In this document: positions 22,843-62,246 of the stretch, in pieces
Layout: each line of letters begins with the position of its first letter
How positions within the stretch are numbered: the first letter of the stretch is position 1
Source: Candidatus Poribacteria bacterium
GTDB lineage: Bacteria; Poribacteria; WGA-4E; WGA-3G
Reading direction: 5' to 3'
NCBI GenBank assembly: GCA_009841255.1
Contig: VXMD01000083.1
Location: 62,001 to 126,000, forward strand
Length of the DNA: 64,000 bases
Notes under the pieces: generated by a model
Told to the model about the DNA's origin: nothing
Databases searched by the model: none
What the model saw: the letters and a program-made list of their open reading frames with translations, nothing else
Program-made: the position numbers and the translations under genes

Positions 22843-23430
22843 TCAATCCCCTGTGTCGGGACGCTCAATATGGCCGTTAACACCATGTGTATCATAAACA
22901 TCAAAAACGGCTTCACAGAAAACCCTCATCTTTTCATCCTGGTTTTTCAACGCTGTTTCATACATTCTGATGAAATATCTTTTGCCTGCTTCGGTCTGCG
23001 AATAGTTACTTTTGCGCAAATTGTGTTCATAACAGAGGGTCTGTCCGTTATCAATGGTATTCGTGCCGCCCCTATCTTTTGGTTTGATATGGTCGGCGGC
23101 TATCGTAACGCCATCTGCCTCTCCACGTCCACAAACAACACAACGGCGATCATCACGTTCAAAAATAGCTTCTCTGTCCCGCGGGGAAAACTCGAATAGC
23201 ACAACCTCGTGGACATAATCGGGATCGTACTTGTAAATGCCTTTCTCTACCTTGATTAGTTTTCCCTCCTGATGAAGCTGCCTAACGGTTCTCCAAGGAT
23301 CCCTCGGAGTTTTACCATGTTCTTGAAAGTACTGTTCCGATACCCAGTCAACCACGGGGCCATGCTGGAGATCCTCGTTCGGATGATTCACGAAATACTC
23401 TAACACAAGCTCACGAATTGTCTTTGCCAT
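22843..23430 (-). CDS. Winged-helix plus HNH endonuclease
   Basis: 195 residues from the ATG at 23430, with GAGGAG 4 nt upstream; a 7-residue longer form lacks an SD. Residues 1-75 look like a winged helix (TIRELVLEYFVNHPNED, DPWRTVRQLHQEGKLIKVEKGIYKY). The HNH nuclease follows: CVVCGRGE, IAADHIKPKDRGGTN, NGQTLCYEHNLRKS. It overlaps the methyltransferase 3' end by 20 nt. It is probably a restriction or accessory nuclease of the same system. Confidence 0.85.
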   Translation of the reverse strand: MAKTIRELVLEYFVNHPNEDLQHGPVVDWVSEQYFQEHGKTPRDPWRTVRQLHQEGKLIKVEKGIYKYDPDYVHEVVLFEFSPRDREAIFERDDRRCVVCGRGEADGVTIAADHIKPKDRGGTNTIDNGQTLCYEHNLRKSNYSQTEAGKRYFIRMYETALKNQDEKMRVFCEAVFDVYDTHGVNGHIERPDTGD

Positions 23431-24214
23431 GTGTCTCCTCTTTTTCTTCAAACAGATACAATTGATTTGCAGCCTGACTTACCCGTTCCTTCGCAAGTTC
23501 GCAGTAATATTCATCGACATCAATTCCAATGCTGCGACGTTTGTTCAATTGGGCGGCAACTAAAGTAGTCCCACTGCCCATAAACGGATCAAGGATAGTG
23601 TCCCCTACGTAACTAAAGAGTTTGATACAACGGCGTGGAAGTTCTAAAGGAAAAGGGGCGGGGTGTCCAATGCGTTTTTTGCTCTCACCCGGAAAAGTCC
23701 AGAGACCGTTTGTCCACTCCATGAATTCTTCCCGGTTTATATCCGATTGTCCACTACCACTCGTTTTTTTCCACTGCTCTTTGTAGAGAACAACAATCAA
23801 CTCAACAGGGGCAATAACATAAGGGGCGGATGCTCTCATCCATGAACCCCAAGCGGTTCGTCTGGAGATATTGCCTTCGTTCCATACAATGGTAGAGTGG
23901 TACTGAAATCCGACAGCGGTTGCGAGTTTGGTGAGATCCGCACCGACGTGTTGTTGGCCACCTTTGTTTTTATCTAAAGGGATATTAAGACAGAAACGCC
24001 CATCGGACTTAAGCCATCGAAAACAACGCGTGAACCATTTTTTCGAAAAGGCAAGATAGTCGGCATAAGAAAGGGCATCGTCATTTGAGTTATATTCTAT
24101 ATCAACGTTGTAAGGTGGTGATGTAACGATGAGGTCAATGCTGTCTTTTTTTATAGCGCGTGTAGTCAGTACATTTCCGTTGACTATTCTGAATTGTTCG
24201 TCGGTAAAAGCCAC
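23411..24214 (-). CDS. Beta-class DNA methyltransferase (N4-cytosine or N6-adenine)
   Basis: 267 residues. Motif IV DLIVTSPPYNVDI comes first and motif I DPFMGSGTTLVAA near the C-terminus, which is the beta-class order. TSPPY favours N4-cytosine modification, though N6-adenine cannot be excluded. The target-recognition region lies between. It heads the operon with two nuclease candidates and a toxin-antitoxin pair. Confidence 0.92.
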   Translation of the reverse strand: MAFTDEQFRIVNGNVLTTRAIKKDSIDLIVTSPPYNVDIEYNSNDDALSYADYLAFSKKWFTRCFRWLKSDGRFCLNIPLDKNKGGQQHVGADLTKLATAVGFQYHSTIVWNEGNISRRTAWGSWMRASAPYVIAPVELIVVLYKEQWKKTSGSGQSDINREEFMEWTNGLWTFPGESKKRIGHPAPFPLELPRRCIKLFSYVGDTILDPFMGSGTTLVAAQLNKRRSIGIDVDEYYCELAKERVSQAANQLYLFEEKEETHGKDNS

Positions 24215-24275
24215 ATCTTCCTCCTATACACTAAGATAGGTGTTAAAGAATTTCCATCGGTAGTAATATCCGTCT

Positions 24276-24304
24276 ATTATACAACATTTGCTTTAGCATA
24301 GCAA
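24276..24304 (-). promoter_or_regulatory. Promoter of the restriction-modification operon
   Basis: Minus strand: -10 TATAAT (24281-24276), 17-nt spacer, -35 TTGCTA (24304-24299). It is divergent from the CBASS promoter; the two -35 boxes are about 10 nt apart. Confidence 0.65.
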
Positions 24305-24314
24305 GCAAATTAAT

Positions 24315-24344
24315 TTGACAAACGAATTAAAAATGTAGTATACT
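24315..24344 (+). promoter_or_regulatory. Consensus-like promoter of the CBASS operon
   Basis: -35 TTGACA (24315-24320, perfect), -10 TATACT (24339-24344), spacer 18 nt. Transcription would start near 24351 and give a leader of about 195 nt. Confidence 0.75.
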
Positions 24345-24360
24345 TAAGTAGTGCGCTTAA

Positions 24361-24470
24361 TATTTGTGAATTTAACTCTGATCCCGTTTCGGGTATTGTC
24401 TCTCCCACCCAATTAGACAGAGTTAATTTAGACCGCACGACCTTTCTAAAATAACCCTCGGTCTAGATTC
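24361..24470 (+). ncRNA. Structured leader of the CBASS operon (unnamed)
   Basis: Within the predicted 5' untranslated region there is an outer stem TTAACTCTG/CAGAGTTAA (24372-24380 and 24418-24426). It encloses a small hairpin CCCG-TTT-CGGG (24383-24393). A second stem follows with TAGACCG/CGGTCTA near 24429-24435 and 24459-24465. There is no T-tract, so it is not an obvious terminator. The coding start is about 80 nt further on, after AAGGAG. I call it a structured leader; a separate small RNA is possible. Confidence 0.45.
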
Positions 24471-24545
24471 CCCTTCATTAATATAAAAAGGGAACCTATC
24501 CCGCAGTATACAAATTATAACACTTTTTAATCAAGGAGAAGAATT

Positions 24546-25541
24546 ATGCCGACAATTCCACAAGCTCGGTTCACTGAACTTCTAAGCGACATCGAACCAA
24601 GCCCCACAACCAAAAGGAACGCCTCTTCCGCTCACACAGCATTACGTGATTTTCTCAAAGATGATAAAGACTTCAAAGAATATCATGAAAATACCTTTTT
24701 ATCAGGGTCTTACAAGAGAGATACAGCAAATCGTCCTCGTACAAAAAATGGGCAGACTGATCGTCCTGATATTGATATTATCGTAGTGACAACTCATACT
24801 CTCAGTGATAGTCCGAAAGAAGTCGTTGATTTACTCTACAAAACTCTGAAGAAAAAGTATTCTGATATCCGCAGACAGACGCGCTCGGTGGGAATTGAGT
24901 CTTCTAAAGCCGACATGGATGTTGTTCCAATTATACCGGATGGAACAATGTACCGTATTCCTGACAGAAAACAGGAACAATGGATAAAAACAAATCCTCC
25001 CGGACATACAACTTGGACGACAGAGACAAACACTGCTGCCGGAGGTCGCTTTAAGCCATTGGTTAAATTAATGAAGTGGTGGAGGCGTGAAAATCCAACT
25101 ATTTCTAAAAAACCAAAAGGGTTTGTTATTGAGTGCATTACTGCTGAGTGCATGGATTATGAAGAAACCTACTACGGCGAACTGTTTGTCAAAACTTTAG
25201 AGAAGATTGTTGAAAAGTACAAGATGGATTACCTTTTAGGCACGGTTCCAAACATCCCAGATCCGGCGGTTCCTGGCAATTTTGTCACAACTAGCATAAC
25301 TGTTGATGCATTCACCGGCTTTTACAATAAAGCAAAGTCCCACGCCGAACTGGGTCGAAAGGCTCTGAACAAAACTGATCCAGAGGAAGCGACAAAGTTG
25401 TGGAAACAGATTTTTGGTGATCGCTTCCCTAAAACAGAAGGAACAAAGTCCGAGGGACTGTTGGCCGCACCAGTAACATTATCATCACCCACTTTTTCAA
25501 ACAAACCAATTGTTCCCAAAGAACCTAAAGGATTTGCCTGA
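24546..25541 (+). CDS. CBASS CD-NTase (cyclic oligonucleotide synthase)
   Basis: 331 residues. The nucleotidyltransferase core has G54-S55 ([10 protein letters not shown]), D75 and D77 in RPDIDIIVV, and a further acidic motif KADMDVVPI (D123/D125), so the active site looks intact. The C-terminal helical part is followed by a flexible, Pro/Ser-rich tail ending KEPKGFA. In type II CBASS the C-terminus is conjugated by Cap2, and a small terminal residue in a disordered tail suits this. RBS AAGGAG. Its stop overlaps the Cap2 ATG by 1 nt. SAVED effectors usually respond to cyclic trinucleotides, so such a product is likely. Confidence 0.88.
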
Positions 25542-27283
25542 TGTGGTTTCTGAAAAATCCGGAGAGACTCCATAAAGAACGAGAGGCAATTACCACATTG
25601 GATTCTGAGGCAGACTGGCTACTGTTAGTAGACTGGAGGTTGAATGACGACACAACATTATGCCTTGTTGCTGATATCGAGGTGCATGGACGCTGTTATT
25701 CAGTAATCATGCTCTATCCGACTAACTACCCGGCCAGTCCACCAACTGTGCGCCCGCAAGAAGAAGACCAGATATGGTCAACACACCAGTATCCTTCTGG
25801 TGAACTCTGTCTTGAGTGGGGACCTGATACTTGGCATGAGGGAATAACTGGTGCTGATATGCTTATCAGCACTCATAAACTGTTAGAAACTGAGAATGTA
25901 ATAGAAAATTCACCACCAATAGTGGCCCCCTCTAGGCATTCGTTGACACTAGGTCAGGAATTAAGATTTAAGTATCTGCGATTTATCGCTGATACATCCG
26001 TCATTTCTTATATACAATCGCTTCCTGAAAAAATTGCAGGAACTATCCAATTTCACGTGATGTTTTCTCAAGAAAATTTAGTTGCTTTTATAGAGAGCGT
26101 TTCTCCTCACAATATCGCAAAATGGTGTCATCCTACACTGCCTCCAGAATTGGAAAAAACCACTAGTCAGATTGAAGGTCACTTCTTCAAAACTACTCTG
26201 GAAGCCGAAGTTTTGATATCTCAACTGTTGGAATCACCTTTTGATGTTCTTGAAGCACAAAATTATGATGTTTCAAAACTCAGATCTTCGTCAACTAGTC
26301 TTGCTCTAATCATTGATGCTAGCGCAGGGATCCACCTGTTTTTAACCTCAAATGAAAAAGAATGGAGTCGATTCGCTCAGGTGGATATCAATAGCAAAGA
26401 AAAAAATCCTCGTCTTTTACCACAGTTTATCAATCTCAATACAAAAACGGTTGGAATTGCTGGACTTGGTTCGGCAGGCAGTAAAATTGCCATTTCTCTC
26501 GCACGAACCGGGGTCCGCAATTTCTTTCTTGTTGATCATGATGTGTTTCTCCAAGAAAATATATGTCGTCATGAACTCAACTGGGAAGACGTGGGCCAAC
26601 ACAAAGTTGATGGAATTGCACATCAATTGAAACTTATTGCCCCAGATGTCAATGTGAAATGCTCTCGTATCAAACTCTCAGGACAAGAAGCCACTGCGAC
26701 TGTTGATAGTGTGCTTTCTCAACTTGGTGCCTGTGATCTCATCATTGATGCGACGGCTGACCCCTGTACTCTTAACCAATTGTCAACTGTCGCAAGCCAG
26801 CAGTTGAAACCCATAGTTTGGCTTAAAGTCTACCCTGGAGGCATTGGCGGAATAATAGCCCGATTCCGTCCTAACGAGGATCCAGACCCACAAATAGCCC
26901 GTGCTGCTTTTCACGAATATCTTGAAAAACTAGAACTACCAGAAATACAAAAAACTGTTGATTACACGACAGTTAACAACGATGGAGAAACTATTGTGGC
27001 GAGTGATGCGGATGTTACTCTCATCGCGGCAAATGCTACTCGAATGGCACTGGATATCTTAATTAAACGTGAACCATCAGATTTTCCTTATTCTCTATAT
27101 TTGATTGGACTCAGTCGGGGCTGGATTTTTGATCAGCCGTTCCACACCATTCCCATAAATCTTCCAGAAGTCCAACCTACCATCACTGTATCAGAACTTT
27201 CAGAGGATGAAGCCAATGAAAACCGCGACTTCATAGAACAACTGATTTTGAAGCAGAAAAATGAAAATTCATCTACCAACTGA
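25541..27283 (+). CDS. Cap2-like E2-E1 fusion protein
   Basis: 580 residues. Residues about 20-120 form an E2-like (UBC) domain with YPTNYPASPPTVRP and the likely catalytic C90 in SGELCLEWGPDTWHEG. From about 295 an E1/ThiF adenylation domain follows, with VGIAGLGSAGSKIA (GxGxxG at 308-313), VDHDVFLQENICRHEL and LIIDATADP. In CBASS this protein conjugates the CD-NTase C-terminus to a target. Striking: the last Cys is C409, and residues 410-580 contain none, although the E1 catalytic Cys is expected near the C-terminus. The C-terminal block GWIFDQPFHTIPINLPE is otherwise family-like. Overlaps cap3 by 23 nt. Confidence 0.87.
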   Translation: MWFLKNPERLHKEREAITTLDSEADWLLLVDWRLNDDTTLCLVADIEVHGRCYSVIMLYPTNYPASPPTVRPQEEDQIWSTHQYPSGELCLEWGPDTWHEGITGADMLISTHKLLETENVIENSPPIVAPSRHSLTLGQELRFKYLRFIADTSVISYIQSLPEKIAGTIQFHVMFSQENLVAFIESVSPHNIAKWCHPTLPPELEKTTSQIEGHFFKTTLEAEVLISQLLESPFDVLEAQNYDVSKLRSSSTSLALIIDASAGIHLFLTSNEKEWSRFAQVDINSKEKNPRLLPQFINLNTKTVGIAGLGSAGSKIAISLARTGVRNFFLVDHDVFLQENICRHELNWEDVGQHKVDGIAHQLKLIAPDVNVKCSRIKLSGQEATATVDSVLSQLGACDLIIDATADPCTLNQLSTVASQQLKPIVWLKVYPGGIGGIIARFRPNEDPDPQIARAAFHEYLEKLELPEIQKTVDYTTVNNDGETIVASDADVTLIAANATRMALDILIKREPSDFPYSLYLIGLSRGWIFDQPFHTIPINLPEVQPTITVSELSEDEANENRDFIEQLILKQKNENSSTN

Positions 27284-27731
27284 CATCCAAAAGAAACTTA
27301 TCCCTGTTCTTGAAAGAGCTGGTAATCAGGAAATTGGTGGTGTGCTTATGGGAGAACACATTGCCGAAGCAGTATTCCGTATCGTTGATTTGACTATTCA
27401 GGAACAATTTGGCAGTGTAGCGTTTTTTCTCCGTTTAGTAACGGATATTGTTAAACCGTTGAAAGGATTCTTTAAACGGACAGGACATAATTATAGAAAA
27501 TTTAACTATCTCGGAGAATGGCATTCACACCCTTCGTTCTTACCCGTGCCGAGCCAGAAAGATATCCAATCAATGCAGGAAATTGTAACTGACTCTGATA
27601 CCGGAGCGAATTTTGTCATCTTGCTTATTGTGAAAATTAAAAACGCGCAGGAAATAGAAGCAACAGCAACAGTTTTTTTTCAAGATGGACAATTCTGTGA
27701 ATGTGAACTGATAAAGGAGAAATTAATTTGA
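27261..27731 (+). CDS. Cap3-like JAMM (JAB1/MPN) isopeptidase
   Basis: 156 residues. The zinc motif is complete: E24 in NQEIGGVLMG, H88-S89-H90 in GEWHSHPSF, then S98 and D101 after seven and two residues. Cap3 removes CD-NTase conjugates made by Cap2. The gene starts inside the end of cap2 and ends overlapping the effector start, so the four genes are translationally coupled. Confidence 0.88.
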   Translation: MKIHLPTDIQKKLIPVLERAGNQEIGGVLMGEHIAEAVFRIVDLTIQEQFGSVAFFLRLVTDIVKPLKGFFKRTGHNYRKFNYLGEWHSHPSFLPVPSQKDIQSMQEIVTDSDTGANFVILLIVKIKNAQEIEATATVFFQDGQFCECELIKEKLI

Positions 27732-29170
27732 GTCAAAAACGACTATCTTCGTCTCTACTGTCACCCCAATCCAGAGGGGGCGATATCGCAGAAGGAGGCT
27801 TCCAATATCAATTCGACTCAACTATTGCTCAAATTCCCAATTGGCTTGCCCAAGATGGGTTTACGGAGATGATTCGAGAAGCCCTAGGTGATGCCGAAGC
27901 GAAGTTCTTTGTTCCTAGTGTCGGCTTTCGGTATGAACTTGTTGAATATAAGAATTATCAATTGAAAGGGAGTAAATTTTGGGAGGAGATTGAGCACTTC
28001 CGGGAAATAGACCGGCAAGATCCGGATTCCTATCAGCAATTCGTACTGGCTTGTAAATCGGTTACTGACGAATTAACACCGATAACAAATGCTTTAAAAC
28101 GGGTTCGGGATCCCTATTCTTTCTACGATACAGCACACCAGATACAAGATACCTCCTACGCCGATTTCGTTGAAGTTGTGGAAGCCCGAAACAAATCAAA
28201 GGATATAGCCAATTTTTTATTTTTAAAAGTGCGCTTCAAACTTGATTCCACAAATGCTGAATCTCATCCTCGAGGACTTTTTATAGAGGAGATGAAGCGA
28301 TATTTTCCAGAATTTAATAAATTGTCGGGAGAAGTCACTGATGCTGCTTACACCCAACTGATTGAGTTAGTGAAATCCCGAAGGAATAAACCGATTTACA
28401 GACATGAACTAGAAAAAGCAATTTGGCACGGAACAAAAGAAAAAGATAGACCCAAATCTACTATAAAAATTCATACAGAGCATGATGAAAACACTGATAA
28501 AGGCCCCGATGGTTGCCTCCAGTTTGATTGGAAGAGCGTTTTTGGAGGTCCCAGTCGCAACTTTCCACTAGTAGGAGAATGGAACAGGAAGGTTATTAAG
28601 CAACTCCAGTCCACAAAAGAGTGGTTAATTTCAACAAAGCGGTCTCGTCATATTCATCTGAATGGACATCGCAGGCTATCTGCGTCTGTTGCAATTGGCT
28701 CAATCTTTTCTGCTGTTGCAGGTTTCACAATTGACATAGAAACTAAAGATGGGATTTGGCGGACTAATAGCCATGCTAAGGAAGACACGCCAGATTATCA
28801 ATGGCAGCAATCTATTGATGAAGGATCAACTGGTGAAATAGCGGTGGGAATTTCGATACTGAAAGATACCGCCAATGAAGAAGTAGAAAGATACTTAGAG
28901 ACGAAGCACTTCCAAGGAAAGCGACTTTATCTGTTCAGCAACATGGTTCTTCAATCAGATGATCAAGCAAACCGGGCAGTACAAAAAGCGAAGTCAGTGA
29001 TCCAAGAGTTGACCAGCAAAACACAAGCGCAGAAAATTCATCTTTTCTTTGCGGGACCTGCACAGTTTGCACTTTTTTTAGGACATCGCTTGAATACACT
29101 TGGTGAAATCCAATGCTATGAACGGATTTCACCAAATATATATGTTCCAACAGTACTCATAGAAACTTAG
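27728..29170 (+). CDS. Cap4-like effector: N-terminal nuclease domain plus SAVED domain
   Basis: 480 residues, TTG start overlapping the cap3 TGA, with AAGGAG upstream. The N-terminus RGGDIAEGGFQYQFD resembles the DUF4297 entry motif. VGFRYELVEYKNYQLK (E73-x-K75) fits a PD-(D/E)XK nuclease. The C-terminal half, from about 270, looks like SAVED: EWNRKVIKQL, ASVAIGSIFSAVAGF, GEIAVGISIL, LYLFSNMVLQSDDQANRAVQKAK and KIHLFFAGPAQFALFLGHRLN, ending YERISPNIYVPTV. SAVED binds the cyclic nucleotide and activates the nuclease to degrade DNA. Assignment of SAVED is strong; that of the nuclease is moderate. Confidence 0.83.
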   Translation: MSQKRLSSSLLSPQSRGGDIAEGGFQYQFDSTIAQIPNWLAQDGFTEMIREALGDAEAKFFVPSVGFRYELVEYKNYQLKGSKFWEEIEHFREIDRQDPDSYQQFVLACKSVTDELTPITNALKRVRDPYSFYDTAHQIQDTSYADFVEVVEARNKSKDIANFLFLKVRFKLDSTNAESHPRGLFIEEMKRYFPEFNKLSGEVTDAAYTQLIELVKSRRNKPIYRHELEKAIWHGTKEKDRPKSTIKIHTEHDENTDKGPDGCLQFDWKSVFGGPSRNFPLVGEWNRKVIKQLQSTKEWLISTKRSRHIHLNGHRRLSASVAIGSIFSAVAGFTIDIETKDGIWRTNSHAKEDTPDYQWQQSIDEGSTGEIAVGISILKDTANEEVERYLETKHFQGKRLYLFSNMVLQSDDQANRAVQKAKSVIQELTSKTQAQKIHLFFAGPAQFALFLGHRLNTLGEIQCYERISPNIYVPTVLIET

Positions 29171-29286
29171 AAATCTCAATTTCAAGAATATCAAACACTA
29201 CACGGAAATCCAACTTTATAGTCCGTCATGAGCTTCTGAATAGGTTTGTGTCATACCACTTCACTAGACTCCCTATTCGATGGGTT

Positions 29287-31167
29287 TTAGGCTGACTGGT
29301 ACCTCAACATCGCAGCGATGTCGTCCGGTAACTGAAGATCATTCTTCTGCTCAAAGTCAGCAACGCTTTCGTAGTCGTTATGAAATGATGCGATGATATC
29401 CGTTCCCAGGTCCTTAGCAACAGTCAAATCTGCCCTAGCTTTTTCCCACTCTTTCAGGTGTAACCATGCCTCGCCACGGTTGCAATATGCCTTAGTATAA
29501 TCGGATTTTAGTTCAATTGCATAACTATAGTCTTGTACCGCCTTGCTATAGTCCTTCTTAGCACCGTAGGAAATTCCTCGATTGAAATATGCTTTAGCAT
29601 GGTTTTGATTCAGTTCAATCGTCATAGTATAATCCTGTATCGCCTTATCATGGTCACCTTTCAAAGCGTAAATAATCCCGCGATCGTTAAACGCCTCAGC
29701 AAAGTCAGGTTTGAGTTCAATTGCTGTAGTATAGTTTTGAAGTTCTCGGTCACGGTCACCCATTTCTCTATAGGCTATAGCCCGATTGTAATATAGGCCG
29801 GCAAAGTCAGGTTTGAGTTCAATTGCTCTGTTATGGTTTTCAATAGCCTTGTCATATTCGCCTTTTTTCTCATAAGCAACACCAAGATTAGCATATACCT
29901 CTGCATAGTCATTTTTCAGGGCTAAAACCGTTTTAAAGTCTGCGATAGCTTTGTCGAATTCGCCTTTGGTGGCAAATGCCGCGCCTCGATTGGCATATCC
30001 CTCTGTATAATAAGGTGCCAGTTCTATCACCGCATTAAAGTCTTTTATGGCGTTATCAATCTCCCCATTTTTGTGATAGGCTAAACCGCGATTGTTATAA
30101 GCTGATACATAATCAGGTTTCAGTTTTATCACTGTGTTATAATGCTGAATGGCACGCTCATACTCGCCTTGTTTGCTGTAAGCGATACCGAGATTATTAT
30201 AGGCTGAAACATAATCTGGTTTCAATTCTATCGCCTTATGGTAATCTCGGATGGCGTTATCAAAATCGCCTATGTGATAGTAAACAATACCGCGATTGTT
30301 ATATGCCGAGGCATAATCAGGTTTCAGTTTTATTGCCATATTATGGTCTTGGATGGCTCTGTCAAAATCACCTGCATCGGCGTAAACAGAACCACGATTG
30401 TTATAGCCTTCCGGAAAGTCTGGCCTTAGTTCCAATGCTTCGGTGTAATGCACAATAGCTCGTTCATACCATTTCAGTTTTTCGTCCCAGTTCTGCACCG
30501 AGTCGGCTCTTTTTCGACAAGTTTTCCCTCTATGAAACTGTGTATAGGCACTCTCATGGATGGTCCAATTTCTGATGAAATCCTGAAGATCGTTGAGGAT
30601 AGTTTCCGTAGAAATCCCATGAGATTTGCGCAGATACTCCAGCATGGACAATTTGAGGTCAGCAGGGATAGTAATCACCTCATCTGGGTTAACGAAGCCC
30701 TTGGGGGGTCGAACAAATACTGTTTTCTGGGCAATAATACGCTGCTTCGGCTTGTACGGTTGTTGGAGATAGCCAGTTACTGAGTCTCTTTTTTGCAAAA
30801 TGACCCTGCCGTCCTCACTAGGCGCACCGTCGCAAGCAAAGAAAAGGGCGATGTGGAAATCCGTTGTGAATTCAATGAGATTGGTTATACCTCCTTGGTG
30901 GTGGAGTTCGGTCAGGATTTCAAATTCGTCCGCTTTCTCAGCATATTTTTTTGCCTCGTCCAGAATTTCTTTTTGGACGAATTCTATCTCAAAATCGTCT
31001 GCTTCAATATCGTACTCATACTGGCGGTAGAGACTTGACACGACTTTCCCATAGGACCTACTTTCCCCTCGAAAGATGTAATTTCCATCGGCAGATTTTT
31101 CGGCTATTTCGCAGATTTTTTGTAGGACGCTACTGAGTTTATTCTGGGGGTCAGATTGAGTGTTCAT
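29287..31167 (-). CDS. FRG domain protein with about eleven TPR repeats
   Basis: 626 residues. The N-terminal 200 residues carry an FRG domain: NYIFRGESRSYGKVVSSLYRQ, then EILTELHHQGGITNLIEFTTDF, HIALFFACD. From about 225 on there are successive 34-residue TPR units of the type AIELKPDYVSAYNNRGIAYSKQGEYERAIQ in outline. Their near-identity suggests recent tandem duplication. FRG proteins occur in defence islands but have no settled reaction. The gene is convergent with the CBASS operon and may be an independent defence factor. Confidence 0.85.
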   Translation of the reverse strand: MNTQSDPQNKLSSVLQKICEIAEKSADGNYIFRGESRSYGKVVSSLYRQYEYDIEADDFEIEFVQKEILDEAKKYAEKADEFEILTELHHQGGITNLIEFTTDFHIALFFACDGAPSEDGRVILQKRDSVTGYLQQPYKPKQRIIAQKTVFVRPPKGFVNPDEVITIPADLKLSMLEYLRKSHGISTETILNDLQDFIRNWTIHESAYTQFHRGKTCRKRADSVQNWDEKLKWYERAIVHYTEALELRPDFPEGYNNRGSVYADAGDFDRAIQDHNMAIKLKPDYASAYNNRGIVYYHIGDFDNAIRDYHKAIELKPDYVSAYNNLGIAYSKQGEYERAIQHYNTVIKLKPDYVSAYNNRGLAYHKNGEIDNAIKDFNAVIELAPYYTEGYANRGAAFATKGEFDKAIADFKTVLALKNDYAEVYANLGVAYEKKGEYDKAIENHNRAIELKPDFAGLYYNRAIAYREMGDRDRELQNYTTAIELKPDFAEAFNDRGIIYALKGDHDKAIQDYTMTIELNQNHAKAYFNRGISYGAKKDYSKAVQDYSYAIELKSDYTKAYCNRGEAWLHLKEWEKARADLTVAKDLGTDIIASFHNDYESVADFEQKNDLQLPDDIAAMLRYQSA

Positions 31168-31249
31168 TCATTTTTCTCCATACAGGTACTGGTGTTCAGC
31201 ATTACAATGATACCCTACTCACCAAAGGATATCAATGAAAATTTAGGCG

Positions 31250-31858
31250 TTATGAATCTTCTCGACTCAGAACTTCCCTATCTTCAGATGAAGGGGGTTT
31301 CGGATCCCATTGGATACCTGTGCGTTCCGCAATAATCTTTTCCGCTTCCGATTTCGCGCTACCGTCTATTATCTTAGACTTAGACAGATATTTTCGAAAG
31401 TTAGCAATAGCTTCCTGTTGATTATCAAGCTCAAAAGTGCAAAATCTCCTATTTCTCCACGGGACATGGGTTTTATACGCGAAGTAGAAATCCCATCTTC
31501 TACCATTGGTGATAACACCGAGGTCCACACCTGCTTGAAAGACATAACGGGCTATCTGATCTTGAGGTGCCTCTATTTCAACACTGGCACTCCATCGTTT
31601 ACATTCAACCAAAACCAGCGGTTTCCCCTCATCCTGTAAAGCATAGTCAACTTTGTTGTCATTTCCAACTCGGAATTCTGGAAAAACCTCCAATGTGTCT
31701 AGATTTGCATAGTTCCACCCTAAGGCTGTGAGAATAGGCAGTACCACAAACTGCTTGGTCGCGGCTTCGTCAAAGTCCATGTCTCTAATTTTCCCCGTAA
31801 ATTTTACAATGTCAGAAATCGCTTGTGTTAACTTCTCGGCGTTGTCTTGTTCCTGCAT
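31250..31858 (-). CDS. Stand-alone HsdR-N-like nuclease domain
   Basis: 202 residues resembling the N-terminal nuclease domain of type I restriction enzymes. KQFVVLPILTALGWN is followed by EVFPEFRVGNDNKVDYALQ and PLVLVECKRWS (the D...ExK active site), then QIARYVFQAGVDLGVITNGRRWDFYF. No helicase, HsdS or HsdM is adjacent. Such isolated domains are frequent in mobile or defence regions. RBS AAAGGT lies 4 nt before ATG. Confidence 0.83.
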   Translation of the reverse strand: MQEQDNAEKLTQAISDIVKFTGKIRDMDFDEAATKQFVVLPILTALGWNYANLDTLEVFPEFRVGNDNKVDYALQDEGKPLVLVECKRWSASVEIEAPQDQIARYVFQAGVDLGVITNGRRWDFYFAYKTHVPWRNRRFCTFELDNQQEAIANFRKYLSKSKIIDGSAKSEAEKIIAERTGIQWDPKPPSSEDREVLSREDS

Positions 31859-51029: not shown

Positions 51030-51558
51030 TCATGAGAGCCAGGGAATGTGTTGATTTTTTAGGTAAGGTGTGAGGTATTCTTGGAGCTGGAGCCGGGCGT
51101 TTCGGAGATGCGTTTTTACCGTGCCTTCAGAGCGGTTCAGACGGTGGGCAATCGCCTTGATGGGTAACTCGTGATGGTAGTATAATACGAACACAAGACG
51201 ACGGGTCTTTGTGAGGCTGTTGAGGGCGTTTTTCAGGTGTTCCCGCAACTCTTGGCGGAGGATGTCTTGACTCGGACACGTGTCTGTGTCTGTCATGCGG
51301 TGTTCGTCAATCAGATGTAGCGGTTCAGCGTCTCGGTGTTTCTGCTTTCGGAAAAAATCGATACAGCCACGAAGAAAAAACCTAAGCACCGCGGAAGCCC
51401 GGGATGCCACGATACGCCTTTAACCACGTCTCTTGCGTCAAGTCTTTGGCGAGTTCGGGGTCTCTGACACATCTCTGGATGTGACGATACAAGCGGTCTT
51501 GGTATTTGCGAACCAGCGGGGTAAAGGCATCGCTGTCGCCCTGCTATGTGCTGTGGAT
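51030..51558 (-). pseudogene. Broken sigma-70 family (ECF) factor
   Basis: Minus-strand translation gives sigma region 2 from about 51543: QGDSDAFTPLVRKYQDRLY, then DPELAKDLTQETWLKAYRGIPGF, in one frame. That frame has TAG stops at 51546-51544 and 51384-51382. After the second stop it reads VFSSWLYR and then loses frame. Region 4 continues in another frame: CIDFFRKQKHRDAE to RLVFVLYYHHELPIKAIAHRLN and EGTVKTHLRNARLQL. The normal IARN-type residues between SWLYR and CIDFF are absent. The string TGTATCGA serves both WLYR and CID codons, so a deletion between short direct repeats is likely. Hence a remnant; the reading starting at 51410 is not a functional sigma factor. Confidence 0.8.
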
Positions 51559-51571
51559 GGGGTGTTTTTCG

Positions 51572-52171
51572 TCAATCTCTTGCAATCAGGTTTCTGTCTC
51601 CGTTTTCAGGTGCGCGGTGTTTCTGTTTTTCAGTCTGCGTCCGTAGACGTGTGAAAAAGAAGGGAAGTCCGCGAAGCAGGCACACGCCGATGGCAATGCT
51701 CGCCAGCACAAGGCTTGCTGTATCCAAAACAGAGTTTGTGAAAACCTGTGCCCCTGCAAGACTGGTAAACGCTAACATTTTCGTCAAACCTGACAGGGCG
51801 CGACTGGGGCGTGAGCGGGTCAGGGCGTATCTCCACCCGCTTTTCGGGTATCCCCAAAACCTTTGTAAACTGTCGGTGATAAAGCCTCGTACCATGACTG
51901 CTATCGGCATCAAGACATTCAGGTGTCCCGACGCTGTGAAGTAGATCCAGAATGTGTTTTCAACGATCCGATCTGCGAGGGTGTCAAGAACTTCGCCTAG
52001 TTTGGAGGTCTCATCGCGTTGACGAGCAACAATGCCGTCGAGGGCATCAAGGATGAATATACCCGCAATTGTGAAAATCACGGCGATGTCAACAGGGCGA
52101 GACCAACCGAACACCGAAATTACGACGAAGGTTAAAAGAAGTCGAGAAAGTGTTATGATGTTCGCAAACAT
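51572..52171 (-). CDS. CDP-alcohol phosphatidyltransferase family protein
   Basis: 199 residues with several TMs. The signature D-x2-D-G-x2-A-R-x8-G-x3-D-x3-D is complete: DALDGIVARQRDETSKLGEVLDTLADR. The N-terminus FANIITLSRLLLTFVVISVF resembles PgsA-like enzymes. It transfers a phosphoalcohol from CDP-alcohol in phospholipid synthesis. Which lipid is made is unclear. It lies between the M48 gene and the sigma remnant on the same strand. Confidence 0.9.
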   Translation of the reverse strand: MFANIITLSRLLLTFVVISVFGWSRPVDIAVIFTIAGIFILDALDGIVARQRDETSKLGEVLDTLADRIVENTFWIYFTASGHLNVLMPIAVMVRGFITDSLQRFWGYPKSGWRYALTRSRPSRALSGLTKMLAFTSLAGAQVFTNSVLDTASLVLASIAIGVCLLRGLPFFFTRLRTQTEKQKHRAPENGDRNLIARD

Positions 52172-52299
52172 GCCTGCTTATTCTCCGTATTCAGGTGCGA
52201 TGTGTTTCATTTTCAGAGAAAACGCTGGTGAGTGGTCTGACATAAAATTTCTCGGAAAACAATACCAAAAACGATCACGGTTCTCTATAAGAAAAGCCT

Positions 52300-54093
52300 C
52301 TACCATCGGACATCCCCCCGCCGTGAAGACAACTTTTCCAGCGCATCGGCGCGTGCCTTAAAATTGGGATGTGTAGATAACATCTCGTTAAATTTATCCA
52401 TATCTTCAGGGGCATCGTTGAGTTGAATGAGTTTACGAAGTGCTTGAAGGAAAACCTCAGGTTCCTGCGTGAGTTCTACTGCGTAAGCGTCGGCTTCAAA
52501 CTCCATCTGTCTCCAAAAACGCATCAACCCAAACTGTGCCAATAGAAAGATAACACCGAAATGAACACCCACAAATAGTAGCCAATACAGCCACGATGGG
52601 ATACCCATGAGAAAACTAAAAAGGAACAAATTCAGGCGCGCCAATAGCAATTGTCCCCCAAAACCCAGCACAATCCATGCGACCTGATTGAGCAGATGCC
52701 GGTGTTTTAGATGTCCTAACTCATGTGCGAAAATCGTTTCGATTTCATCATATCTCAGATGTTCAAGCAAGTAGTCGGTGAGAAAGACCGAACGCCTCTT
52801 TGGGAAAATACCCGCAACCCATGCATTCGCTAACTTCCTGCTTTTCGTCTTAAGTACGACGATATTTCGGCAATCTATTCCTGCTTTGCCTGTGAGTTGC
52901 TGTAAACACAGGCGAAGTTTTTCATCTTCTAAGGGGGTTGCTTTCCATATCCACCCTAAGACCAACGGCATCAGGCAGGCAAAGAGTGCAGTTAATATCG
53001 CATATTGTGCTAAGAGCAGAAGGAGAAAGAAAAAAGACGATAGATTTGGAAAGATTTTCTGTGTGGCTAAAAAACAGATTGGAAGTAGGAGTGCCGGCAT
53101 CCCCAGGACGATCATCCGCAGATTCGTAAGGAAGTTTTCACGAAAACTCCATGTCGTGCCACGCGAGGTTTTTTCGTAGTCGTGGAGAAGGCGAAGTAAA
53201 ATCAGAAAGCAAATCAAAGTCGCGGGAACAATACTTAATAGAATACCGAAAAGTGTACTTTCTGTTGCCGCTGAACATATATGTACACAACCGAAATGAA
53301 TCGTCGCACCTATAGTCACATAGAATTCAAGATAGATAATGATAAATTGGATCGGTTTGAATTTGACTTTGCCGCGATCGTTGATGATCCTACCGCGCCT
53401 CAAGAACAGATACGCTGTTATTCCAGGTAATAATATCGCAAAAATTACGAGAGGGAATTCCTTTAAAAACCAAACTTTAGAAAAAGAACTTTTGGCATTG
53501 AGCGTGGGCAGGGTCAGTTTCTCAGAAAACTGACCTAAATCAACCGTGTACCGAATTCGGTAGTTTAACAGCCCACCGAAAGTTATCGGTCCTGTCCACC
53601 TTTTTTCGGGCGAAAATTGACTTCGCCACTTTTGATGATCCAAATTACTCTTGTCATTCGATACCACACCGGACGTCAAGACATCCTGATAGGCAAAACC
53701 ACGGTTGCCAAAAACATCAATAATTATGCCATTAGCATTCGAAAACTGATCCCGAAGCACCTGAAAGTTCAGTCTAAAGTGGGTATCAAGGCGTTGCTTC
53801 TCCGAAAGGTTGCCGACCTGCCAGGCAACCTTATTACCGTTTTCATACTTGATTTCAAGAGATTTTTCAGAATACGTCCAACCATGTGACTGTGCTAAGG
53901 CTGACAGATCGGCTTGTATCTGTGCCTTGGAGACGTTTGCTGGATATTTTATCCCAATCGCCTCGTTCGGCTGCCAACCGAGAACTCTGAACATCAGATG
54001 AATGGTATTCCCCGTATCGGACGACTCCTGGCTCCCGGAATTGTTACTCAGCAAAAAGAGGATTCCTATACAGAGAAACAAGATTATTTTCAT
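52300..54093 (-). CDS. M48 family membrane metalloprotease with large N-terminal extension
   Basis: 597 residues. Signal or first TM at 1-20, an exported N-terminal region (about 25-200) of unknown fold, then several TMs. The M48 core has FAHELGHLKHRH (HELGH 457-461) and the third zinc ligand in EFEADAYAVEL (531-535). The architecture resembles HtpX/Ste24-like proteases, but the 200-residue extracytoplasmic part is unusual. It follows the Yip1-like and SpoIIM-like genes and could process the small secreted peptide encoded upstream (inference from context). Confidence 0.88.
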   Translation of the reverse strand: MKIILFLCIGILFLLSNNSGSQESSDTGNTIHLMFRVLGWQPNEAIGIKYPANVSKAQIQADLSALAQSHGWTYSEKSLEIKYENGNKVAWQVGNLSEKQRLDTHFRLNFQVLRDQFSNANGIIIDVFGNRGFAYQDVLTSGVVSNDKSNLDHQKWRSQFSPEKRWTGPITFGGLLNYRIRYTVDLGQFSEKLTLPTLNAKSSFSKVWFLKEFPLVIFAILLPGITAYLFLRRGRIINDRGKVKFKPIQFIIIYLEFYVTIGATIHFGCVHICSAATESTLFGILLSIVPATLICFLILLRLLHDYEKTSRGTTWSFRENFLTNLRMIVLGMPALLLPICFLATQKIFPNLSSFFFLLLLLAQYAILTALFACLMPLVLGWIWKATPLEDEKLRLCLQQLTGKAGIDCRNIVVLKTKSRKLANAWVAGIFPKRRSVFLTDYLLEHLRYDEIETIFAHELGHLKHRHLLNQVAWIVLGFGGQLLLARLNLFLFSFLMGIPSWLYWLLFVGVHFGVIFLLAQFGLMRFWRQMEFEADAYAVELTQEPEVFLQALRKLIQLNDAPEDMDKFNEMLSTHPNFKARADALEKLSSRRGDVRW

Positions 54094-54157
54094 ATCGTCC
54101 CTTTCTCATCGCGGATGTGCCCTACGTTTTAGTGCAAGGATTTGAGCTGTTAATGGA

Positions 54158-54787
54158 TTAAAACAAAAAAACAGATTGCAGTGCTTTGCTCAGCAGCCAA
54201 TAAATGACATAAGGGATAACCACACTGCAAAATGCTTTGAGCCACGTGATTTCAAAGAATCCGCGAATCACTATTACAATGATGAGTCCGAAGCATATAT
54301 TGCCGACTGCACCGATAAGTCTCAGCGGAGACAATGTTTCAGTAATTGCGTCTACCATTTCTTGTGAATCCCTTATGTTATATTCAAGCGTTCCGATGGG
54401 AGATGGTAACACAAACAAAATGAACAGAGAGCAAATGAGAGTACCTGCTAATAAAATAAGATGACAGATACCTACGATTTCAAAGAAGTTTCGGAAAATG
54501 CAGTCTGCATCAAAGAAGAGCTCGCACCAGTAGAAGATGACAACGCTCATTAGGAGCCAACTTATCAATCCTCCGACGATCACAGAAAAACTGCCGAGAA
54601 CTGAAATAGCAATCTGAATGTTGCGAGGGATTTCAGAGAACTCAATCTGTGCGTACAGCGTTTGTGTGTTAAAAATGTGAACAATACCATTGAACAGAAC
54701 AATTGTCAACGGAAACCAAAGGGCGGGTGTATAGTTTTTTAGGGAATCTGAAAGTTTTTTATCGAATATCGTGATCCAGTTCTTCAT
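54158..54787 (-). CDS. Yip1-like membrane protein
   Basis: 209 residues with five or six TM segments in the Yip1 pattern: LWFPLTIVLFNGIVHIF, VLGSFSVIVGGLISWLLMSVVIFYW, FFEIVGICHLILLAGTLICSLFILFVL, LIGAVGNICFGLIIVIVIRGFFEI and a last helix near VIPYVIYWLL. The Yip1 family is broad; in bacteria some members sit in bacteriocin or export clusters. It lies 42 nt downstream of the SpoIIM-like gene. Confidence 0.75.
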   Translation of the reverse strand: MKNWITIFDKKLSDSLKNYTPALWFPLTIVLFNGIVHIFNTQTLYAQIEFSEIPRNIQIAISVLGSFSVIVGGLISWLLMSVVIFYWCELFFDADCIFRNFFEIVGICHLILLAGTLICSLFILFVLPSPIGTLEYNIRDSQEMVDAITETLSPLRLIGAVGNICFGLIIVIVIRGFFEITWLKAFCSVVIPYVIYWLLSKALQSVFLF

Positions 54788-54829
54788 ATGTTTATCACTT
54801 GCTTTCGTTAGAGTAAAACACAGATACCC

Positions 54830-55366
54830 TTATCTCAGCGTCCGGAGCATTCTGATGGCATCTGCTTCGAGCAATCCAGCGATAATCGTTAGCACACTCG
54901 AAATGACGTAAACGCTGATAATAAGCACAGACTCCTTGTAAAGAAAACAACGTCGGGGGTTTGTAAAAAGTGAAAACACCTCTGAAAAACCCTGAAGCCC
55001 CATCGCACCGATGCCCCAGAGTGCACACACTTCAAAAAACAGATAAGAAAATCTGTATCTTACCGGCCAAGGAAACTCAAGAATACTGAATCCCTTTAAA
55101 AATAGAATAGCAACAAAACCATTGACGAAGAGCGTAAAAGCCGCTGTCGCCCCTGCGGTAAAAAGCCCGACCAAGGCAATTGTCATCACGAATAAATTGT
55201 TGATAATAATTTGTTGGGCATTAAGCCCTGTTAGCATCGCATTCCATGCCCGCAAACTCTCTTGAGAAATTGTATGTCCAGCGGGTTGGAAGCAAAAGGC
55301 AAACACACCCCCGAGGCACCAAATCCCAATGGCAAGTAAGAGATTTCTTAGAAAATGCCGCATCAA
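54830..55366 (-). CDS. SpoIIM/DUF95-like membrane protein
   Basis: 178 residues with about five TMs. The family block is NAQQIIINNLFVMTIALVGLFTAGATAAFTLFVNGFV, followed by FSYLFFEVCALWGIGAMGLQGFS and a final helix before LLEADAIRMLRTLR. SpoIIM/DUF95 proteins occur as accessory, immunity or export components in circular-bacteriocin loci. Start is TTG 55366 or ATG 55363, with no clear SD. A strong hairpin precedes it. Confidence 0.8.
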   Translation of the reverse strand: MMRHFLRNLLLAIGIWCLGGVFAFCFQPAGHTISQESLRAWNAMLTGLNAQQIIINNLFVMTIALVGLFTAGATAAFTLFVNGFVAILFLKGFSILEFPWPVRYRFSYLFFEVCALWGIGAMGLQGFSEVFSLFTNPRRCFLYKESVLIISVYVISSVLTIIAGLLEADAIRMLRTLR

Positions 55367-55378
55367 ATTTTATCTGGG

Positions 55379-55414
55379 TGCTTTGCATGAGCGTCTCTGA
55401 TCCCATGCAAAGCA
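55379..55414. promoter_or_regulatory. Stem-loop between the small peptide gene and the SpoIIM-like gene
   Basis: Perfect 11-bp arms TGCTTTGCATG (55379-55389) and CATGCAAAGCA (55404-55414), 14-nt loop, no T-tract. In bacteriocin loci such stem-loops behind the precursor gene limit read-through or stabilise the precursor mRNA. The same role is plausible here. Confidence 0.7.
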
Positions 55415-55488
55415 GTCTAGTCGGTGAATGACAACCGTTCAGGTCCTTAGATCTTGCCACTCACCTACAAAGCTAGTAAAAACGGGCA

Positions 55489-55740
55489 TTACGCCACGAC
55501 CCCGAGTCCAACTCCGAGAGCAACTCCCCCGGTGAGTCCGGCCGCTACGCCTATGCCTACCCATACAGCACCTGACCACATACCCCCTGCTGCTGCAGCA
55601 ACGCCAGCGGACGTACTCCCACATACGCTTGCAGCAATTCCAACTGCTCCCCATAGATTGCCCAGAAGGGGCGCACTACCGAGCAATGCAGCAGTTAATA
55701 GGCATGCGATAAGAAGGATTGACATTGATTTTTTACGCAT
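55489..55740 (-). CDS. Small secreted Gly/Ala-rich hydrophobic peptide, bacteriocin-precursor-like
   Basis: 83 residues from the ATG at 55740, which has AAAGGAGG 7 nt upstream; the longer frame to 55794 has no such site. Residues 1-24 (RKKSMSILLIACLLTAALLGSA) form a signal peptide. The predicted mature part of about 59 residues is Gly, Ala, Val and Leu rich with a few Trp and one Cys: LWGAVGIAASVC, GGMWSGAVWVGIGVAAGLTGG. GxxxG-like spacing suggests membrane-active helices. Length and composition recall circular or class II bacteriocins. No homologue is recognised. Confidence 0.72.
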   Translation of the reverse strand: MRKKSMSILLIACLLTAALLGSAPLLGNLWGAVGIAASVCGSTSAGVAAAAGGMWSGAVWVGIGVAAGLTGGVALGVGLGVVA

Positions 55741-55790
55741 GGTTTTTCCTCCTTTCTGCTCCGGGTGAACTGTTTCCCAGAGCCTATTTA

Positions 55791-55810
55791 TCATTGGCTA
55801 TTGCCAATGA
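55791..55810. promoter_or_regulatory. Perfect hairpin in the leader of the small peptide gene
   Basis: 8-bp arms TCATTGGC and GCCAATGA, 4-nt loop. A second stem CTTGAA/TTCAAG (55825-55830 and 55840-55845) overlaps the stop of the upstream fusion gene. Possibly RNA processing or attenuation. Confidence 0.55.
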
Positions 55811-55836
55811 CATCTTTTAGATGACTTGAATCCGTT

Positions 55837-57525
55837 TTATTCAAGACGGAAGATATGGTGATATTCGTCTTCGTAAACGATGTCAGTTTGATTCTCTTGC
55901 AACAACTGTTTTGTGAGGGCATACCCCGGTTCTTCAGAATCTCTTGTACACAAGACATAGTTGGATCGAAAAACATCCTTTATTTTCTGTGATGGGTTTT
56001 CAGACTGCCCAGAAACAACTGATACCCAGAGATCCCACACATCGTTATCATACGCATAACAGTAAACAGGATCCAAGCCAAACAAGTAGTAATTTTCGGT
56101 GTTAAAATAAAATAAAACTGGGAAATCCGACCAATTCGATGTAAAAATGATAGCTTTTTCGGGTGTATTGACTTTTAACCAATGTGCGGATCCTTCTAAT
56201 TTTAGGGGAAAGCGTAGCGGAATGAGAAGCATCGCTAAAACATACATGACGAGCGAAAAACTCAGCAAACCAACGTATCCAATCTTAAGACCCGTTTTCA
56301 AGACGCTCGATTTTAATGGACTTATCGCCGTTATACCCAACGCAACAGACAGGGCTGTAAAAGGCATCCAATATTCGACAAATCTCATTGAGACAATTGT
56401 CATCACCAGAAAAATGGAGGCAAGAATAAAAATAAAGACGGAAATACTACTTAAATTCCTGCGATTTAAAATCAGAAACGTCATTGCTATACCCCAAAGA
56501 AAAAGGGTAATTCCGTTTACACCTATAAAAGTCGATATGGGTTGTGATTTAACCTCCCCTACAAACCAGAATTCTTGATTATTTCCCCAGTTAAAAACGG
56601 GCAATAGTGCGTTTTGCACGTACCACGTCTTTAAATTATTTGGAAACTGTGGATGAATAACCAATCCGAATGTGATTCCAACAAGTGTCAGTAAGAGGAA
56701 ACTCATTTTCAATTCCCGCTGATGTATCCATAAGATCGCCACGTAGATCAGAGTAATGAATACAAGGAAATGCGCAGCTGTGTAGGCAAGTGGATACAAT
56801 ACTGAAATGAGCAAGAGTTTCCACAGTCTTCGGTTCCACAAACTTTCGACAAACAGGAGAATGAGTAGCACCGATAGCACATGAGGACGAATCATACACA
56901 TTCTTTGCAGAAAATTTGAGTTGACTCCGAAAGCAATCAGTGTCCAAATAAGTGCATGGCGAATCTGAAACTGATTGAGTAGTCTGTAAAAAAGGCAAAA
57001 AAGAACGCCTCCTAAAACCGAAATCGCGACTTTTCCAGCGACCATCAGATCGGGAAAAACACGGAGAAAAGGCATCAGATAAACATGGAATAGAAATTCT
57101 TTGTCGGCGAATTTATCCTTCCAGATGCTCACTTGTGTCCACGGAAAATCTTTTAAGATCCCGTGCTGCATCATAAGTTCGCTCACCTTGACGTGATAGT
57201 ATGCGTCAATCCCTACAAACCCAGGTGCACAGAGTTGGATGAGAAAAATCAGGAGACTAAAGAGAATGAAAACATATCCTTTTTTCTTGTAGAACCACGA
57301 CCGAAAATTTCTCGGAGGCTGACCGCTTTTTAGCGTTTTCAGTGCCTCAAAGAATGTTTCTTGAACCAGATCTTGGGCATCTTCATTGTTTCTAATTTTT
57401 TTCTTGAAAAACCTATAAAGAGCCCCCCAGTGTCGCTGACAGAGAACGTTTCCTGCTTTTTCATCGCCTTTCTGGTAACATCTCACGAGATCGACATCAC
57501 TATATTCTTCATAATGGGTCAGCAT
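55837..57525 (-). CDS. Fusion of sigma-70 region 2 with a polytopic GT-C-like membrane protein
   Basis: 562 residues. Residues 8-75 match ECF sigma region 2: SDVDLVRCYQKGDEKAGNVL, LYRFFKKKIRNNEDAQDLVQETFFEALKTL and FRSWFYK. At the point where sigma factors continue with IARN-type sequence, the protein switches to KKGYVFILFSLLIFLIQL and about eleven TMs. GIDAYYHVKVSELM (D-x-Y-Y-H) and DKFADKEFLFHVYL resemble GT-C glycosyl or oligosaccharyl transferases. Region 4 is absent. No frame break is visible at the junction. It is the first gene of the minus-strand cluster. Confidence 0.8.
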   Translation of the reverse strand: MLTHYEEYSDVDLVRCYQKGDEKAGNVLCQRHWGALYRFFKKKIRNNEDAQDLVQETFFEALKTLKSGQPPRNFRSWFYKKKGYVFILFSLLIFLIQLCAPGFVGIDAYYHVKVSELMMQHGILKDFPWTQVSIWKDKFADKEFLFHVYLMPFLRVFPDLMVAGKVAISVLGGVLFCLFYRLLNQFQIRHALIWTLIAFGVNSNFLQRMCMIRPHVLSVLLILLFVESLWNRRLWKLLLISVLYPLAYTAAHFLVFITLIYVAILWIHQRELKMSFLLLTLVGITFGLVIHPQFPNNLKTWYVQNALLPVFNWGNNQEFWFVGEVKSQPISTFIGVNGITLFLWGIAMTFLILNRRNLSSISVFIFILASIFLVMTIVSMRFVEYWMPFTALSVALGITAISPLKSSVLKTGLKIGYVGLLSFSLVMYVLAMLLIPLRFPLKLEGSAHWLKVNTPEKAIIFTSNWSDFPVLFYFNTENYYLFGLDPVYCYAYDNDVWDLWVSVVSGQSENPSQKIKDVFRSNYVLCTRDSEEPGYALTKQLLQENQTDIVYEDEYHHIFRLE

Positions 57526-61646: not shown

Positions 61647-62246
61647 TTAGATAAAAGGTTTTAGCTTATCCTTAAGCATGAGTCGAGCACGGTTGATGCG
61701 AGATTTCGTTGTCCCGCTTCGGAGTTCCAATACCTCACTGATTTCATCGTAACTCAATCCCTGTAGGTCGCGTAAGATGAGAGGGAGTCTGTACTGTTCT
61801 GGTAATTCTGCGATCGCTTTTTGGATAGCGTTGCGTAACTCCTTACGTTCAAGTTCCACTTCCGGCTGGAAAGTCGGATTCGCGGGTGCATTTGCAATCA
61901 AATCAATTTCTTCCGCGTCGTTATGACCATCACTTCCACTGCTTACAACATTATCAACTCTATATTTGTCCCGCCGTTCTCGATTTCGGATTTCATTTTT
62001 GCAAAGATTTTTGGCGATGTGATACATCCACGTCTCAAAGTGCGCCCGCCCCGGTTCATAACGATGCGCCGCTTTAAACATGCGAATGAACGTCTCCTGC
62101 GCCAAATCCTCAGCATTATCCCGATCATTGATGAACCGAGCAATGAAATTGATGAGTGGCTGCTGATGTCGGCGCACGAGGAGCGTAAACGCGCCTTCAT
62201 CCCCTTTTTGGTAGCGTTCCATTAATTCATCATCTAAGTCAAGCAT
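61647..62246 (-). CDS. ECF RNA polymerase sigma factor (RpoE-like)
   Basis: 199 residues from the ATG at 62246, with GGAGG 6 nt upstream; a longer frame from 62285 lacks an SD. Region 2: MERYQKGDEGAFTLLVRRH, DRDNAEDLAQETFIRMFKAA, HFETWMYHIAKNLCKNEIR. Region 4: AIAELPEQYRLPLILRDLQGLSYDEISEVLELRSGTTKSRINRAR. It is intact, unlike the sigma remnant at 51030. Downstream anti-sigma and HtrA-like genes form a sigmaE-type stress module. Confidence 0.93.
   Translation of the reverse strand: MLDLDDELMERYQKGDEGAFTLLVRRHQQPLINFIARFINDRDNAEDLAQETFIRMFKAAHRYEPGRAHFETWMYHIAKNLCKNEIRNRERRDKYRVDNVVSSGSDGHNDAEEIDLIANAPANPTFQPEVELERKELRNAIQKAIAELPEQYRLPLILRDLQGLSYDEISEVLELRSGTTKSRINRARLMLKDKLKPFI

Follow-up and report, generated by a model that had tools for sequence, protein, structure and literature searches.

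The window analysed here is a stretch of 64,000 nt from Candidatus Poribacteria bacterium (assembly GCA_009841255.1, contig VXMD01000083.1, forward-strand positions 62,001–126,000). At approximately 51–57.5 kb of this window, six open genes are arranged on the minus strand with operon-like spacing (gaps of 42–128 nt). Their order is a fusion of sigma region 2 with a polytopic membrane protein, an 83-aa peptide followed by a hairpin, a SpoIIM-like protein, a Yip1-domain protein, an M48 protease and a CDP-alcohol phosphotransferase, the M48 gene being the third gene downstream of the peptide gene. All ORFs named in an earlier note on this DNA were found on this strand and in the order given there, and the confidence in the gene set, the gene order and the conserved RNA is high. 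The features, in window coordinates, are as follows.

55837..57525, minus strand: ORF of 562 aa; residues 1–81 are a truncated ECF sigma region 2 (PF04542, 7.3e-8) and residues ~82–562 a polytopic membrane protein
55741..55836, minus strand: structured leader RNA ahead of the peptide gene, kept in two genomes (helix 1, 55789–55812; helix 2, 55758–55783)
55489..55740, minus strand: 83-aa precursor peptide; homologue in JAAXHO010000027.1 (L005:988-1215; E 4.7e-6, 37%)
55380..55413, minus strand: hairpin GCTTTGCATG-loop-CATGCAAAGC, stem identical in JAAXHO010000027.1
54830..55363, minus strand: SpoIIM/DUF95 family membrane protein, 177 aa; 52% to L005:1325-1894, which itself matches PF01944 (4.3e-11)
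54158..54787, minus strand: Yip1-domain membrane protein, 209 aa (PF04893, 4.6e-9)
52300..54093, minus strand: M48 membrane metalloprotease, 597 aa (PF01435, 5.4e-26; Ste24p 4il3, 5.9e-12)
51572..52171, minus strand: CDP-alcohol phosphatidyltransferase, 199 aa (PF01066, 1.2e-14), possible last cassette gene
51030..51540, minus strand: separate downstream ECF sigma factor, decayed by frameshift (regions 2 and 4 not in one frame; in-frame stop)

Elsewhere in the window (23411–31858), an ORF group with a DNA methyltransferase-like motif (SPPYN) was observed, and several of its neighbours resemble a restriction or defence island.

The cassette was compared with a set of 85 genomes of the phylum, two of which carry the peptide, namely the window's own genome and G072:C249 (JAAXHO010000027.1, L005). 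The latter is Candidatus Poribacteria isolate Plut_88891, from another genus of the same family, and its 3.9-kb contig holds the end of the membrane-protein gene (62%), the peptide (37–43%), the hairpin, SpoIIM (52%), a Yip1/M48 ORF and a HAD gene. The Yip1/M48 ORF (L005:1939-3030) is an in-frame chimera of the first 35 residues of Yip1 and M48 from residue 259 (69%), which retains the protease motif and arose by internal deletion. Additionally, an M48 gene (58–60%) lies behind a Yip1 tail with a stop codon in G066 (L049), so that M48 homologues of 58–69% are present in L049 and L005. G022 (L048) retains a stretch of ~260 membrane-protein residues (66%), immediately after which comes a fragment of the CDP-enzyme tail. 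One ancestral gene order would explain all four loci, and the cassette is rare (~4 of 85 genomes) and seemingly lost by internal deletions. The earlier note had made its proposal depend on conservation of the peptide and of the peptide–SpoIIM–Yip1–M48 order elsewhere; both, together with the leader and the hairpin, recur in another genus.

A profile built on the SpoIIM pair revealed no further convincing copy in the 85 genomes. Weak PF01944 matches in genus genomes (L160, L161) were rejected as SpoIIM cassettes, L161 being an ATP synthase locus and L160 having no such genes. A phage or plasmid origin was likewise rejected, the SpoIIM protein having no match in viral contigs and the window SpoIIM and both peptides none in plasmids.

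Among the conserved genes of the cassette, the first is the polytopic membrane part of the first ORF, which has 13 hydrophobic segments and shows 62% identity to L005:3-887 and 66% to L048:238-1035. This gene had earlier been described as a sigma/GT-C fusion. The in-frame ORF of the fusion is genuine. The membrane part has no Pfam, NCBIfam or PDB match worth the name, and the "GT-C-like" label is unproven. Alignment of the sigma part to intact ECF sigma factors of ~210 aa stops at residue 81, and no sigma piece precedes the membrane-protein gene in G022, the sole relative retaining that gene end, so the fusion looks accidental. Its role as a functional regulator was rejected because the fusion is not conserved, and it probably lies outside the system. 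The downstream ECF sigma pseudogene is probably outside the cassette as well; insertion of the cassette into a single sigma gene, with halves left at both ends, was rejected because the downstream copy, with a region 2 of its own, is a distinct gene that has undergone a frameshift. The CDP-alcohol phosphotransferase family is widespread (65 of the 85 genomes). Its link to the cassette is possible, with adjacency in the window and a remnant in G022 (L048:1037-1123; 46% over 28 aa, E 5e-4, weak alone, in the expected place and direction) as the evidence.

The SpoIIM, Yip1 and M48 families are assigned with high confidence. The Pfam matches listed above bear out the earlier naming of the Yip1, M48 and CDP-alcohol phosphotransferase genes. 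The SpoIIM/DUF95 assignment was reached by way of a homologue: the window protein had no Pfam match at E≤1, and a PF01944 profile search of the window's whole genome found only another gene. At the same time, its 52% homologue on JAAXHO010000027.1 matches PF01944 well above the cut-off (43.5 bits against 26.9), so the family call is sound. AF2 models of the membrane protein and the SpoIIM-like protein were not interpretable (pLDDT 40 and 43, respectively). The M48 protein has an N-terminal extension and intact HELGH (at 457) and EFEAD motifs, and among proteins of solved structure Ste24p is the closest to it in sequence.

In many genomes of the genus (L086–L095, e.g. L088:5565-6987), a stand-alone Yip1 gene (~42% to that of the window) is convergent to a HAD hydrolase gene. 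A HAD gene closely similar to these adjoins the L005 cassette, pointing to a hot spot in common or to an ancestral site. In the window's own genome, the cassette Yip1 is the only family match, with no stand-alone copy, and the closest HAD genes are on another contig.

In the two genomes, the ~96-nt stretch separating the first gene from the peptide gene is better conserved than the peptide itself. The leader RNA folds into two hairpins in both (z −3.9 and −3.5), and helix 2 has an identical 10-nt loop, AAACAGUUCA. All 18 of the 18 pairs are kept in both sequences, three of them with a substitution in each partner and two with one in a single partner, and when the structures were slid by 1–3 columns as a control, only 29–50% remained paired and no double change was seen. 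A column-shuffle control, weak by design with two sequences, gave 55/500. These data argue for a fold maintained through compensatory changes. A covariance model of the leader found only these two loci in the 85 genomes, and pattern and covariance searches of the same set gave no further copies, the weak pattern matches being followed by no peptide gene. No Rfam match identified the leader as a known riboswitch, and a CRISPR-repeat match of the L005 leader, below the gathering score, was taken as chance.

The strong stem-loop reported earlier after the peptide gene has a 10-bp perfect stem (−19.5 kcal/mol, z −3.5); in JAAXHO010000027.1 the stem is repeated identically with a different loop, and the hairpin lies 16 nt (window) or 15 nt (relative) before the SpoIIM start. 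Since no T-run follows, it would serve in mRNA processing or translation damping and not as a terminator.

The peptide gene encodes 83 aa from an ATG preceded by a perfect Shine-Dalgarno sequence, AGAAAGGAGG, at 55748–55757. The hydrophobic N-terminus and Gly/Ala-rich remainder stand as previously described, whereas cleavage by signal peptidase at a classical site is doubtful, Ser-Ala being followed by Pro in the window peptide. The aligned precursors have the N-terminus M-x-KKSM...AC-x-LT-x-ALL-x-SA in common, and in both Asn28 precedes an aromatic start (N|LWG and N|VWWG). This common Asn is the better candidate for cleavage; the argument is based on two sequences, the only intact peptide genes known. 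The proposed leader would thus comprise residues 1–28 (MRKKSMSILLIACLLTAALLGSAPLLGN) and the core residues 29–83 (LWGAV...GVVA, 55 aa, 51% G+A). A cut at the conserved Asn would give ~4.8 kDa instead of the 5.5–6 kDa expected earlier. In both peptides the region after Asn28 is Gly/Ala-rich and hydrophobic, without conserved charge (GRAVY 1.47 for the window core and 1.18 for that of the relative), and cutting there leaves cores of 55 and 48 aa. A core of 48 aa is shorter than the known circular-bacteriocin cores. No bacteriocin family model in Pfam or NCBIfam matches the peptide. The dN/dS values of 0.34 (peptide), 0.30 (SpoIIM), 0.18 (membrane protein) and 0.12 (M48), approximate because dS is near saturation, point to purifying selection on all four.

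The association of SpoIIM/DUF95-type proteins with circular bacteriocins, to which the earlier note referred, holds for all described clusters, and removal of SpoIIM from the leucocyclicin Q system leaves the mature peptide inside the cell (PMC6131525). According to Major et al. 2021, Yip1 is common in clusters of head-to-tail cyclised bacteriocins, and in two clusters of group 1 an M48 peptidase is encoded by the third gene after the precursor (PMC8659200). The earlier statement that no established family has such a set does not stand, given that SpoIIM, Yip1 and M48 occur together in this way in some of these clusters. The window cassette thus has SpoIIM/DUF95 in common with the whole class and the accessory Yip1 and M48 with a part of it. 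Group 1 clusters have, however, transporter genes and mostly Trp/Tyr core ends that are not those of the cassette, which in turn has a polytopic protein before the peptide and a CDP-alcohol phosphotransferase after it.

The peptide itself resembles that of subgroup ii (group 4), in which a conserved Asn cleavage site is followed by a hydrophobic or aromatic core start and the core ends in Ala, as do the cores of group 8 (PMC8659200). The likeness extends to the 76–83-aa precursor, the hydrophobic leader, an Asn where cleavage is proposed, the Gly/Ala-rich core without conserved charge, the Ala end (in the window peptide) and SpoIIM just downstream. Unlike this subgroup, the cassette lacks an ABC ATPase and a small cationic immunity protein; its peptide has no sequence match there, its cores are 48–55 aa, and it belongs to a different phylum. 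No ABC or ATP-binding gene was found in the window at 46.6–64 kb or on the 3.9-kb contig of the relative, and no small cationic immunity protein was found among the ORFs, the gaps of 42–128 nt leaving no room for one. An ATP-binding protein is required in all reported circular-bacteriocin clusters, and such bacteriocins are reported from Firmicutes, Actinobacteria and Thermotogae only (PMC8534725).

Among bacterial plasmids, the nearest match of the relative's SpoIIM is on Staphylococcus simulans NZ_CP095103.1 (weak, E 0.08; 35–40% over core motifs), in a cluster annotated "putative cyclic bacteriocin" with the order peptide – large membrane protein – SpoIIM. An ABC ATPase is present there, and its peptide and large membrane protein are unrelated by BLASTP, with no similarity between the latter and the first membrane protein of the cassette. 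The SpoIIM gene of this cluster (L187:4171-4569) is missing from the plasmid gene table. As for a leaderless, aureocin A53-like bacteriocin, the conserved hydrophobic leader-like N-terminus before Asn28 would argue against it.

The same protein families allow other readings. SpoIIM, Yip1, the protease and the lipid enzyme might act on the cell's own membrane as a remodelling or secretion cassette, with the peptide as a structural subunit and not a toxin. In archaea, small membrane proteins beside Yip1-family genes (arCOG02054) and SpoIIM families (arCOG01994) are predicted to form membrane-remodelling systems (PMC5898192); moreover, a lipid-synthesis gene adjoins the cassette, and in other Poribacteria a lone Yip1 gene neighbours a HAD gene. 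The published descriptions of the archaeal systems include, however, neither an M48 protease nor such a leader–Asn–core peptide, and sporadic presence (~4 of 85 genomes) with repeated loss better suits an accessory trait, so that this reading is considered rather unlikely. Alternatively, the peptide might be exported in linear form, as a signal or short toxin, after M48 has set it free without cyclisation in the way that Ste24 releases yeast a-factor. This would agree with the kinship of the protease to Ste24p, the hydrophobic leader and the lack of a nameable cyclase, but no receptor or regulator gene is linked and the same families accompany cyclised peptides (PMC8659200), which makes it quite improbable.

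A decaying remnant without present function could also be considered, since the relatives are broken (the L005 Yip1/M48 chimera, the stop-bearing Yip1 tail with M48 in L049 and the join of membrane protein and CDP tail in L048), the first cassette gene in the window is joined to a broken sigma factor, and the adjacent second sigma is a pseudogene. At the same time, all six window ORFs are open, the active-site motifs of M48 are intact, and the peptide and its RNA signals are under constraint, so that decay is judged quite improbable.

The explanation preferred here is a divergent, ABC-less, circular-bacteriocin-like cassette of Poribacteria, to which an even chance is given, as it is, roughly, to an exported membrane-active peptide related in its working to circular bacteriocins; cyclisation of the product is held more tentatively, as possible, and M48 is a plausible candidate for the processing enzyme. 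For this explanation count the recurrence of order and peptide in another genus, the covarying leader, the identical hairpin stem and the purifying selection. By analogy, the universal SpoIIM, frequent Yip1 and matching M48 placement of circular-bacteriocin clusters point the same way, as may the Asn before an aromatic or hydrophobic core start (subgroup ii), the Ala end of the window core (groups 4 and 8) and the weak S. simulans match (E 0.08). Against it count the absence of an ABC gene and of room for an immunity gene, the lack of a bacteriocin-model match, the relative's core of only 48 aa, a phylum outside the reported producers (PMC8534725) and an Asn28 argument drawn from two sequences. 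An ABC-free new class of ribosomal membrane-active peptide, in which M48 would both cut at Asn and close the ring, SpoIIM and Yip1 would export the product and the covarying RNA leader would regulate it, is thought unlikely. The cassette most likely works like a circular bacteriocin cluster without the ABC export arm, and is not filed as one because it has no ABC ATPase and no room for an immunity gene and its peptide matches no model.

In such a circular-bacteriocin-like system, the structured leader RNA would control translation of the peptide, and the hairpin after the peptide gene would keep its high expression apart from a lower level for the membrane proteins encoded downstream. The hydrophobic leader would insert the precursor in the membrane, where the Ste24-like M48 might cut after the conserved Asn28 and release the 55-aa uncharged, Gly/Ala-rich core, which may then undergo head-to-tail closure. 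Export of the core and protection of the producer would fall to SpoIIM and Yip1 together with the first, polytopic protein, and the product would insert in the membranes of competitors. We infer the cleavage site, the pairing of protease and peptide, and the export and immunity roles.

Leader loss and ring closure of circular bacteriocins are an open question, no enzyme having been identified for either (PMC8659200). Here, in a phylum distant from those of the known producers, a precursor gene is linked to SpoIIM, Yip1 and M48 without an ABC transporter, and the cassette supplies a few candidate factors for processing and export, each of which can be tested on its own. If the proposed reading is true, it would extend circular-bacteriocin-like peptides to an uncultured phylum.
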